Virus record (IMG/VR): IMGVR_UViG_3300030099_007384
Location: 1 to 43,917 of that record
Source: a virus
Reading direction: 5' to 3' (one strand)
DNA length: 43,917 nucleotides
Shown here: one piece after another, positions 446-5,498 of the stretch
Numbering within the stretch: the first letter of the stretch is position 1
How the letters are laid out: each line of letters begins with the position of its first letter
The notes under the pieces: generated by a model
Told to the model about the DNA's origin: nothing
The model's input: only the letters and a program-made list of their open reading frames with translations
The model's database searches: none
Program-made: the position numbers and the translations under genes

Positions 446-1309
446 ATGGCAAGAACAAAAGCAACTCAAAAAAAGGTTTCACTATCCGAATTAAACAATC
501 ACACTGTAAATAATAAAAGACAAGCCTTAAAGGATTTAAAAATGCTAAATTTTGATGAAATACAATTTAAGAATCCAGCTCAGAAAAGATTCTATAAAAC
601 TATTTCTTCAAAAGATATTACATTTGGTATAGGTCCTGCTGGTTGTGGTAAAACCTTTTTATCTGTACACCGAGCATTACGAGAGTTAGGTGATAAATCA
701 AATTCTATAGATGGAATTGTTATCGTTAAACCTCTTGTAGAAGCTGCGGGTGAAAAGATAGGGTATTTACCAGGTGATGTAGAAGAAAAAACGGCACCAT
801 TTATGATGTCTTTTTATTACAATATGGAACAGATTATTGGTAAACAAAGATTACAAGTCTTAAAAGACAATAATATTATTCAGGTAATACCAATGGCTTA
901 TATGAGAGGTATAACTCTTTCAAACAAATTCGTAATATTAGATGAAGCTCAAAATGCAACACCTGAACAAATCAAAATGTTCGTAACAAGAATTGGTGAA
1001 AATAGTAAATATATTATCACAGGTGACTTGGAACAATCTGATATACAAAAACACAAAAGTGGATTAGAAGACGCCATTAAAAGATTCGCTGGTGTACATG
1101 GTGTAGGTTTAGCTCAATTTAAAGAAAAAGATGTTGTAAGACATTCTTTAGTTAGAAGATTGTTAAAAAGATATAAACCATCTTTTAATATAATTGATGA
1201 AGTATCAGCAGAAAAAACTATATCAATGTGGATTCATGAACAGGGTTTAGATTCTGTTAATGATGGTTCATTACATACGGATGATACTTTTTATAAATTA
1301 AAAAAATAA
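446..1309 (+). CDS. phoH: PhoH-like ATPase
   Basis: This 287-residue protein matches the PhoH family of P-loop ATPases. Walker A is GPAGCGKT at residues 63-70 and Walker B is FVILDEAQ at 162-169. Between them is the family segment with KPLVEAAGEKIGYLPGD around residues 95-111, and 'ITGDLEQSDI' at 191-200 is also typical. PhoH proteins are frequent in marine phages. Cellular relatives have been linked to phosphate starvation and RNA metabolism, but the phage role is not established. About 45 N-terminal residues precede the ATPase core. The gene stands between a terminator and a new promoter region, so it may be transcribed alone. GGAG at 434-437 serves as the ribosome binding site. Confidence 0.93.
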   Translation: MARTKATQKKVSLSELNNHTVNNKRQALKDLKMLNFDEIQFKNPAQKRFYKTISSKDITFGIGPAGCGKTFLSVHRALRELGDKSNSIDGIVIVKPLVEAAGEKIGYLPGDVEEKTAPFMMSFYYNMEQIIGKQRLQVLKDNNIIQVIPMAYMRGITLSNKFVILDEAQNATPEQIKMFVTRIGENSKYIITGDLEQSDIQKHKSGLEDAIKRFAGVHGVGLAQFKEKDVVRHSLVRRLLKRYKPSFNIIDEVSAEKTISMWIHEQGLDSVNDGSLHTDDTFYKLKK

Positions 1310-2528: not shown

Positions 2529-3695
2529 ATGAAATTAGATAACTTTTTTAACATAGATACAGAATTTAACTTTGATAAAGAAAAAGAACTCTTTATTAAT
2601 AATTTAGATATGCTTAAATCTATGTCTGTACAAGAACAAACATTATATAAAAAATGGTTGGAGTTTAATAACAATGAAAAGACGAGACAGAGATTTATTA
2701 AAAATTATTCTAAATCAGAAATTCTCTACAACAACATATGGAGACCAACTGACATATTCAATCAAGAACAAACAATCAAAGAGATTGAAAATCTGGACCC
2801 GATTGTTGAATTGGCTGAAACACCTGAAACTTGGACTCTATTAAGAACACTTATTTCATCTATGGAGTTTACAGCAAATCCTGGTAGAAATATTAGATTC
2901 TTTGCTAGAGATAAAGTTACAGGTAAATATCTTGGTGTTATATCAGTTGGTTCAGATGTGACTTCAATTAAAGTTAGAGATGATTATATTAAATGGACTA
3001 AAGATAATAAATTCGTAGACCACAAACTTAATCATACTTGTATCGGAACATCAATTGTTCCAACTCAACCATTGGGTTTTAACTTTCTTGGTGGTAAGTT
3101 ATTATCAGCTTTAGTAACAACATCAACTATTAGAGACCAATGGAAGAAAAATTACAATGAAACTTTAATTGGTGTTACTACAACTTCTCTCTATGGTGTT
3201 CACTCCCAATACAACGGAATACCACATTGGAAAACATTAGGTGAATCTACGGGCAAGATTGCAATCAAACCTGATGATTCTGTATACAAAGTATGGAGTA
3301 ATTGGTTAAAAGAGAATCACAGAGAAGAGTTCGATAAAGCTATTAGTGGAACAGGTCCTAAACAAAACATTCTAAACAAAGTATTTAGGCATATGGGAAT
3401 CAAAGTTAAAGATTACGAACATGGATTTAAAAGAGGTGTATTCTTTGCCAATATGTACGACAATGGTTTGGAGTATCTACGAAATGAAATTGATGATAGT
3501 GAATTGGTTATGAAGAAAAAGTTTGTGGAAGATTATGAATACATCAATAGGTGGTGGAAGAAGAAAGCAATTAAAAGATATACCAAAATGTTAGAACAAG
3601 GTAGAATAAAAGATGAAACATTATTCTACAATGATATGTTTAACATGACTTGGGAAGAAGCTAAGGAGAAATATTTAACTGATGTTGGTAGATAA
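2529..3695 (+). CDS. DruA-like (DUF4338-like) protein, paralog 1
   Basis: The 388-residue protein has a helical N-terminus (1-110) and a core at about 115-245. The core contains NPGRN (117-121), GKYLGVISVGSD, RDDYIKW, NFLGGKL and TTTSLYGVHSQYNG, then GESTGK. The order and spacing resemble the DUF4338 domain of DruA, a component of the Druantia anti-phage system that also occurs in transposon-associated proteins. Its biochemical activity is unknown to me, and a GNAT-like acyltransferase relationship is possible but unproven. It shares the whole architecture with the next gene, and the matching N-termini (MKLDNFFNIDTEF here, MLVDKFFDTEIEF there) support both starts. No Shine-Dalgarno is visible, and the leader is A-rich. 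It follows the palindromic control region. Confidence 0.6.
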   Translation: MKLDNFFNIDTEFNFDKEKELFINNLDMLKSMSVQEQTLYKKWLEFNNNEKTRQRFIKNYSKSEILYNNIWRPTDIFNQEQTIKEIENLDPIVELAETPETWTLLRTLISSMEFTANPGRNIRFFARDKVTGKYLGVISVGSDVTSIKVRDDYIKWTKDNKFVDHKLNHTCIGTSIVPTQPLGFNFLGGKLLSALVTTSTIRDQWKKNYNETLIGVTTTSLYGVHSQYNGIPHWKTLGESTGKIAIKPDDSVYKVWSNWLKENHREEFDKAISGTGPKQNILNKVFRHMGIKVKDYEHGFKRGVFFANMYDNGLEYLRNEIDDSELVMKKKFVEDYEYINRWWKKKAIKRYTKMLEQGRIKDETLFYNDMFNMTWEEAKEKYLTDVGR

Positions 3696-4773
3696 ATTTT
3701 TTGATACTGAAATAGAATTTGATTTGGATTCTGAAAAACAAAAAATAATTGATTTTATAGATATGAAAAAGAATCAATCTGCAGCTGAAGCAGTATTCTT
3801 TGATAAGTATCATGAGATACAAGCCTGTTCAGGTGAACAATTTAAAATCAATACATTAAAAAATAAAGTATGGAATGAAACAGATATATCTAATCTTAAA
3901 CCAAAAGTTATTTTAGTTGATACCAAAGAACAACTTGATGATTGGCGTTACCTTATTCGTTTCACATCAAGTTTCAAAAATGTTTCTAACCCTGGCCGTA
4001 ATATGAAATTTTTAGTTGTAGATGAAACTACTAATAAATATCTTGGAGCTTTGACTGTAACTTCAGACTTCGGTGACTTGGGTGGTAGAGATAAGTATAT
4101 TGGTTGGACACGAGATGACAGATACAAAAATAAAAGATTAAACAATGTAGCTTGTGGACAGGCTATAATTCCAATGCAACCATTAGGACATAACTTCTTG
4201 GGTGGTAAACTTATGGCACTTATGATTACTTCAGATGTAATTAGAAAATCTTGGGAAGATAAGTATGGTGACATATTGGTTGGTATGACTACAACATCAT
4301 TGTACGGAACACATTCTCAATACAATAGTATGCCAACATTTAAAAAGAGAGGTAAGACAACTGGTAAAATGCCAATTAAATTACCAAAAGATATGGTTAG
4401 AGTTTGGGAAGAATACTTTGGTGAAAAACGAAAAGTTAGATCTAATTTGGATACAAAGATATACAGAGAATGTGGTATGAAACCGGCTGATTATATTAGT
4501 GGAATGCAAAGAGGAATTTACTTTTGTTCATTCTATGATAACACACGAGAATTTTTATGTGGAAAAATTAAAAAAAGTTCTTTGCTTTTACGGCAGGATT
4601 TCGTATATTATAATAATTTAATATCTGAATGGTGGAAACCAAAAGCAGAAAAAAGATTTAATAAACTAAAATTTGATAACAAAGTAATATCAGAATTACA
4701 TTTTTGGGATAAGTTATTTAGTTTAACTTATAAACAAGCAAAAGAAAAATATTTAGGGGAAGTTGGAAGATGA
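3682..4773 (+). CDS. DruA-like (DUF4338-like) protein, paralog 2
   Basis: This 363-residue paralog of the preceding protein repeats its key blocks: NPGRNMKF, KYLGALTVTSDF, RDKYIGWT, LNNVACG, NFLGGKLMAL, TTTSLYGTHSQYN and a GKTTGK segment. It is closer than paralog 1 to the generic DUF4338 pattern (SDFGDLGGRDKYIGW). Divergence is clear outside these blocks, so the duplication is not recent. The ATG overlaps the end of paralog 1 by 14 bases, and AAGGAGAA at 3663-3670 provides a ribosome binding site. The pair probably acts as a heteromer or on related substrates. DNA modification, counter-defence or host-nucleic-acid attack are all speculative roles. Confidence 0.62.
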   Translation: MLVDKFFDTEIEFDLDSEKQKIIDFIDMKKNQSAAEAVFFDKYHEIQACSGEQFKINTLKNKVWNETDISNLKPKVILVDTKEQLDDWRYLIRFTSSFKNVSNPGRNMKFLVVDETTNKYLGALTVTSDFGDLGGRDKYIGWTRDDRYKNKRLNNVACGQAIIPMQPLGHNFLGGKLMALMITSDVIRKSWEDKYGDILVGMTTTSLYGTHSQYNSMPTFKKRGKTTGKMPIKLPKDMVRVWEEYFGEKRKVRSNLDTKIYRECGMKPADYISGMQRGIYFCSFYDNTREFLCGKIKKSSLLLRQDFVYYNNLISEWWKPKAEKRFNKLKFDNKVISELHFWDKLFSLTYKQAKEKYLGEVGR

Positions 4774-5498
4774 TAAATCAAGAACAAATGGATAATAACT
4801 GGAAAGAATTGATGTCAATTATTGACAAACACTTTGAAGGTGAACAAAAAGAAAATATTCTAAAGTTACATAGTGACTTTGAAGATGAATATAAAACAGC
4901 ACCTGCATCAGGTAGACCAAACTATCACAATTGTTTTAAAGGTGGTTATTTAGACCATATATTACATGTAATTAAAAACTCGTTAAAAATTAAAAGACAA
5001 TATGAATCAAATGGTGTAAAGGTAATTCATCCAGATTCTGATGTAGTATTAGCAGCTATGTTTCATGACTTGGGTAAACTTGGTGATGGAACTCAACCAT
5101 ACTACAAGTATCAAACTGATGATTGGAGAAGAAAGAAATTAAAAGAGTGGTATACTCATAATCAAGATTTAGATTATATGACGGTTCATGATAGAGCTTT
5201 ATGGTTACTGGCTAAATATCACATTGATGTTAACCCTCATGTATATAAAGCTATATTATGTGCTGATGGGTTATTTGATCCAGCAGCTGAAACTTATTTT
5301 AAATCTTATGTAGATACAAGACACGTTCTTGGTTCAATAGTTCACTTTGGTGATTGGTTATCGACAATCTGTGAAAAACAAAATTGGTTACAAGGTGAAG
5401 AAGAACATTCTGATGAGGGTGAAGTTGTTACTAAAAAGAGTGTTTCTGATAAAGACATAAAAAATATGAAAGCTAAATTTGATGAGCTTTTTAATTAG
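4770..5498 (+). CDS. HD-domain phosphohydrolase
   Basis: The 242-residue protein carries an HD-type metal-binding signature: H63 in YLDHILHV, then H99-D100 in MFHDLGKLGDG, and a later aspartate at D166 (CADG). HD proteins hydrolyse phosphate esters of nucleotides or nucleic acids using divalent metals. Phage members are often dNTPases, 5'-nucleotidases or cyclic-nucleotide enzymes, but the specific substrate cannot be read here. The C-terminus (about 200-242) is acidic and then lysine-rich. Its ATG overlaps the stop of the DruA-like paralog (ATGA), so the three genes at 2529, 3682 and 4770 form a tight operon and may belong to one process. Confidence 0.82.
   Translation: MINQEQMDNNWKELMSIIDKHFEGEQKENILKLHSDFEDEYKTAPASGRPNYHNCFKGGYLDHILHVIKNSLKIKRQYESNGVKVIHPDSDVVLAAMFHDLGKLGDGTQPYYKYQTDDWRRKKLKEWYTHNQDLDYMTVHDRALWLLAKYHIDVNPHVYKAILCADGLFDPAAETYFKSYVDTRHVLGSIVHFGDWLSTICEKQNWLQGEEEHSDEGEVVTKKSVSDKDIKNMKAKFDELFN

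Follow-up and report, generated by a model that had tools for sequence, protein, structure and literature searches.

The window analyzed here, a 43,917-nucleotide stretch of DNA from a marine phage, belongs to IMG/VR virus record IMGVR_UViG_3300030099_007384, which is 56 kb long and is itself a fragment. The record carries features of T4-like phages (PhoH, primase, and RimK) and a long open reading frame (ORF) that, by eye, has the look of a fused SbcCD-type recombination protein. The nearest relatives of its primase are found in Flavobacterium and Microcystis phages, so the host is uncertain. A PhoH-like ATPase gene (positions 446 to 1309, plus strand) is an upstream neighbor conserved in the phage clade, and a small phrog_21574 protein encoded at positions 1379 to 1897, upstream of ORF A, is retained in most of that clade. 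ORF A (2529 to 3695; 388 amino acids) and ORF B (3682 to 4773; 363 amino acids) adjoin on the plus strand and overlap by 14 nucleotides (3682 to 3695), and the junction sequences place the start codon of B inside the final codons of A. B in turn overlaps by ATGA the gene at 4770 to 5498 (plus strand), which in relatives without B overlaps A, likewise by ATGA. The product of this downstream gene had been described as an HD-domain enzyme; it is HD-like by its PHROG match (metal-dependent phosphohydrolase, 2e-10), but its Pfam HD match (0.0027) is below threshold, and we refer to it as a putative HD-domain metal-dependent phosphohydrolase.

A and B are both members of the DruA family. The Pfam DruA profile (PF14236) matched A with 74.2 bits (E = 1.3e-20) and B with 77.9 bits (E = 9.8e-22), both above the gathering cutoff of 27 bits. 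The preliminary description, which was made from the letters alone, had already claimed tandem DruA-like paralogs, and this claim was borne out: both ORFs exist, both exceed the PF14236 cutoff, and they share 38% identity over 391 alignment columns. The profile searches could have assigned them to an unrelated family; DruA was instead the only above-threshold Pfam family for either protein, and the PADLOC DruA matches of A and B (1e-22 and 3e-17) agree. PHROG 19197, a family of unknown function, was matched too, in agreement with the DruA assignment, and an NCBIfam search with A and B gave no match. The four ordered motif blocks noticed earlier are found in both proteins: YLGVISVGS in A and YLGALTVTS in B, RDDYIKW in A and RDKYIGW in B, NFLGGKL in each, and TTTSLYGVHSQYN in A and TTTSLYGTHSQYN in B. 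Residues kept family-wide (A numbering) are G119, G136, R150, P181, GGKL at 188 to 191, T218, S220, G223, S226, Y228, G238, R302, and R350; in the alignment, they are present in the phage rows and in the Nitrosococcus DruA, and B retains all of them. The recurrence of the pair (see below) and pN/pS ratios of 0.08 to 0.39 for A and B (0.09 to 0.17 for A alone) indicate that A and B are genuine genes and that purifying selection acts on both.

The A and B pair was also found in at least eight other IMG/VR contigs, with A followed by B in L003, L004, L007, L022 to L025, and L034. Among the other contigs with A, the HD gene, which forms the conserved edge of a variable slot, directly follows A in eleven, and a different cassette follows it in about 10. 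This slot, bounded upstream by A, is empty in some relatives; in others it is occupied by B, by Mom genes, or by nuclease/glycosyltransferase cassettes. B starts inside A, and its 3' end agrees with the A/HD junction seen in relatives that lack it; B is thus an accessory gene that occupies a fixed position. In L003, two tandem Mom genes (Pfam Mom, 2.8e-38 and 1.9e-50) lie between A and B, and the first of them starts inside A at the same place as B does in the window; across the relatives, PF25680 (Mom) matches in the slot after A reached 2.8e-38, 1.9e-50, and 3e-41. The slot of L012 holds Mom, an endonuclease VII-like protein, a GmrSD_N-HNH protein with matches to NsnA in PADLOC and to a model of a type II restriction enzyme, and a glycosyltransferase, and that of L013 to L018, L027, and L028 holds variable proteins, mostly without a database match, plus a glycosyltransferase. 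Mom and glycosyltransferase genes were also sought in the window's own 56-kb record, a fragment, and none was found there.

Some cassette proteins deserve mention in their own right. The L012 glycosyltransferase (L012:9763-11103, Glycos_transf_1) has a C-terminal tail with a winged-helix look by eye and has homologues in many of the contigs L013 to L028 and L058 to L120; glycosyltransferases of this type near DNA polymerase or DruA-like genes are candidate DNA glycosyltransferases. Cassette proteins without clear database matches are encoded at L018:2566-3735, L015:7250-8467, and L013:3011-4546, the first of which, on inspection by eye, shows a PD-(D/E)XK-like motif of the IEIK type.

In quick trees, in which long branches meet, A grouped with single-copy phage homologues and B formed a separate deep lineage outside the clade that holds A. 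Judged from these sequences, A is of a lineage in common with the single-copy phage homologues. We considered a recent duplication of A as the source of B and rejected it on the tree position of B, although a sister placement of A and B was not rejected (p-AU = 0.27). B may have arisen by ancient duplication, by transfer, or through fast divergence.

AlphaFold (AF2) models of A (pLDDT 90.2, pTM 0.87) and B (pLDDT 85.1, pTM 0.82) have a strand and helix order that fits a GNAT core, which in the A model spans approximately residues 85 to 318, flanked by helical N- and C-terminal extensions. DUF4338 has been described as a GNAT domain and found fused to DndF (PMC10853773). When the top Foldseek chains were realigned, the best matches of both models were nearly all GNAT chains (Z of about 8 to 11), and the top PDB chain for each was 8bv8, the inactive S124A mutant of phage Mu Mom (A: Z 10.2, 181 residues, 4.2 Å, next chain 8.8; B: Z 11.1, 174 residues, 4.0 Å, next chain 10.1). 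The GNAT comparison proposed at the outset gave a GNAT fold for both predicted models, with Mom as the best PDB match, a ranking that comes from the realignment and in which the lead of Mom, a longer chain, over other GNATs is modest (1.0 to 1.4 Z, only 1.0 for B). Plain Foldseek returned mostly GNAT enzymes at weak E values (best, 0.0096), and Mom was absent from its best 50 rows. Searching the PDB by sequence, with either A or the A2 profile as the query, gave chance matches only. Ser124 of Mom appears to correspond to the Ser of an N-x-E-S turn before helix 3, for which the DruA counterpart would be GGKL; by this inferred alignment, the equivalent residue appears not to be Ser in the DruA-like family. 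In the BFVD database, proteins strongly similar to A in structure occur in the giant viruses Faunusvirus, Yasminevirus, and Dasosvirus (A0A3G4ZXG3, A0A5K0UAJ3, and A0A3G4ZRA1), two of them longer than 1,100 amino acids.

Mom is a DNA-modifying enzyme of phage Mu (PMC7824862; PMC6483171). The Pfam Mom profile (PF25680) did not match A or B at E values of up to 10, and hhalign of the long DruA-like family against Mom detected no similarity (probability 1.4%), with no gain when distant rows were added. At the level of gene neighborhoods, 24 of 35 DruA-like records also contained Mom, and 23 of 30 Mom records also contained a DruA-like gene. The two lay within 10 kb of each other in 13 of 19 selected contigs carrying both, compared to 4.3 expected at random, an indication rather than a clean P value, as the records are related and significance is overstated. 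A DruA-like gene was present in five isolate records, of which just one also had Mom, far away from that gene.

Short DruA-like proteins (∼180 to 240 amino acids), whose genes in several genomes are directly adjacent to Mom genes or overlap them, bear on the relation of the two families. One of them, from L131, matched both DruA (8.6e-23) and PHROG Mom (8.4e-5). A profile of the short proteins matched the long DruA-like family with an E value of 1.5e-11 (probability, 97%) and aligned with Mom colinearly and weakly (E = 0.0011; probability, 20%); the stretch common to the short proteins and Mom resembles N-G-x-V-Y-x-A-x-N-W-x-x-x-G. On sequence grounds, the short proteins are suggestive, short of proof, of a common descent of DruA-like proteins and Mom. 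Short DruA-like genes were observed in L217 to L222 and at L131:5295-6005, L093:3642-4370, and L208:5419-6132, and the isolated-phage collection held no relative of the short protein.

A profile scan found at least 572 DruA-like relatives in IMG/VR (572 of 600 candidates among the matches listed). In marine T4-like phages, DruA-like genes adjoin those for DNA polymerase, the sliding clamp, or the clamp loader, often with a 4-nt overlap. Of 100 loci, 55 had pol, gp45, or gp44 as the direct neighbor; the median gaps ran from −4 to +7 nt, the median being 1 nt where the gene followed gp45 and −4 nt where it preceded gp44. The flanks of the 100 loci held a glycosyltransferase cluster in 37 and Mom in 18. 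In cyanophages, the gene lies between gp44 and gp62, and in Pelagibacter phages, it lies near gp46. The preliminary description had called two copies in one phage unusual, which is partly right: among marine T4-like phages, one copy is found in many and two in a few, and the cultured Pelagibacter phage HTVC008M, like the window, has two divergent DruA-like genes. Of other cultured phages, Mosig has one DruA-like gene and S-SSM7 a DruA-like gene plus Mom. Unlike A and B, the HTVC008M copies lie apart, one near gp46 and the second (L224:3236-4360; HTVC008M positions 99535 to 100659) overlapping the DNA polymerase gene by 4 nt. The window copies are outside the replisome operon and keep all family-wide residues.

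With respect to known systems, the DruA protein of Druantia type I (PF14236/DUF4338) belongs with A and B in one family on profile evidence (1e-20 to 1e-22) and has the same invariant residues, and the DruA of a Nitrosococcus plasmid aligns with A and B over the GNAT core; the differences are an identity of only ∼21 to 25% and the phage replication or modification context of A and B. A DruE-like helicase query matched the control plasmid and found none in G000 or in six related phage records (fragments), and the neighbors of A and B had no Druantia PADLOC matches. Mu Mom (PF25680, 8bv8), a methylcarbamoylase, is the best solved match of both models, has tandem paralogs, and is a neighbor in relatives, but A and B are longer, have helical extensions, and do not match its profile. 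DruA-like cyanophage proteins have already been reported: the available part of one study names such proteins by structure in six Synechococcus phages (PMC12774648). These belong to a homologous family recovered by tblastn and, in the phages checked, are encoded by a single copy between gp44 and gp62, in contrast to the pair described here; a Mom link, a tandem pair, and the replisome placement are not described in that part. The deposited annotation of one cyanophage homologue reads "methylcarbamoylase mom," and GNAT, Mom, and DruA go unmentioned in a report of carboxymethylcytosine in phage S-B43 (PMC12783734).

We lean slightly toward the view that A and B act as GNAT-fold acyltransferases on phage DNA, each with its own specificity, thereby guarding it against host nucleases, and they are probably distant relatives of phage Mu Mom. 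In this view, a CoA-type molecule would donate an acyl group that A and B attach to bases of phage DNA (or of another replication-linked nucleic acid) during or after replication, which would render the DNA resistant to host nucleases. With two copies, the phage would cover two specificities, for sequence or for base, which is probably also what the tandem Mom pairs do for related phages. We infer here CoA binding, catalysis, the DNA substrate, the identity of the mark, and the division of labor between A and B. DNA modification was one of the roles suggested earlier, and the predicted GNAT fold with its Mom match and the gene context in relatives favor it. The main rival, which we consider unlikely, is that A and B acylate proteins such as the sliding clamp, clamp loader, polymerase, or host RNA polymerase in a takeover of replication or transcription; the phage GNAT Rac acts on RNA polymerase (PMC7824862; PMC7552054). 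The GNAT fold is generic, acetyltransferases acting on amines or proteins are numerous among the close structural matches, and DruA-like genes sit within the gp43/gp45/gp44/gp62 operon, all of which would suit a protein target. The best single structural match is nevertheless the DNA enzyme Mom, DruA-like genes are repeatedly coupled to Mom, glycosyltransferase, and nuclease cassettes, and A and B keep all residues while located outside the replisome operon.

The long helical extensions outside the GNAT core and the lack of a verified classical acyl-CoA loop motif would also suit a protein without enzymatic activity that binds DNA or assists the replisome and is built on a degenerate GNAT scaffold. 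We regard this as improbable: the invariant GGKL, R150, T218, S220, S226, Y228, and R302 look like an active site, and they span phage and Druantia proteins. The least supported reading, a decoy or inhibitor of host Druantia, draws on the homology to DruA and was among the roles proposed in the preliminary description. The results speak against it, and we consider it very improbable: the family is conserved, common in diverse marine phages (at least 572 relatives), and widespread in replication operons, A and B have lost none of the residues conserved across it, the slow evolution of A (pN/pS of 0.09 to 0.17) is not that of an arms-race inhibitor, and the phage records examined, which are fragments, yielded no DruE-like helicase. 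Attack on a competing element, also raised there, would be conceivable only by way of the nuclease cassettes of relatives.

Compared to the open-access literature, the Mom association, the replisome placement, the tandem pair, and the cultured two-copy phage are apparently new, and the accessible portions of the open-access DUF4338/DruA literature state no biochemical role of DruA. The fold, the neighborhood, and the (weak) sequence ties to Mom suggest a testable DruA function. As a tentative extension, possible rather than probable, the DruA family might form, next to Mom and related to it, a second class of enzymes for the acyl hypermodification of DNA, common in marine T4-like phage lineages and coupled to the replisome, with tandem copies placing two marks, and the DruA of Druantia might act likewise. 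If so, Druantia DruA would be a DNA (or nucleotide) acyltransferase and Druantia type I a modification-linked defense. From the ties to Mom, one would expect an acyl modification, so far unreported, in the DNA of abundant SAR11 and Synechococcus ocean phages, which would be directly assayable in the DNA of the cultured phages HTVC008M, Mosig, and S-SSM7.
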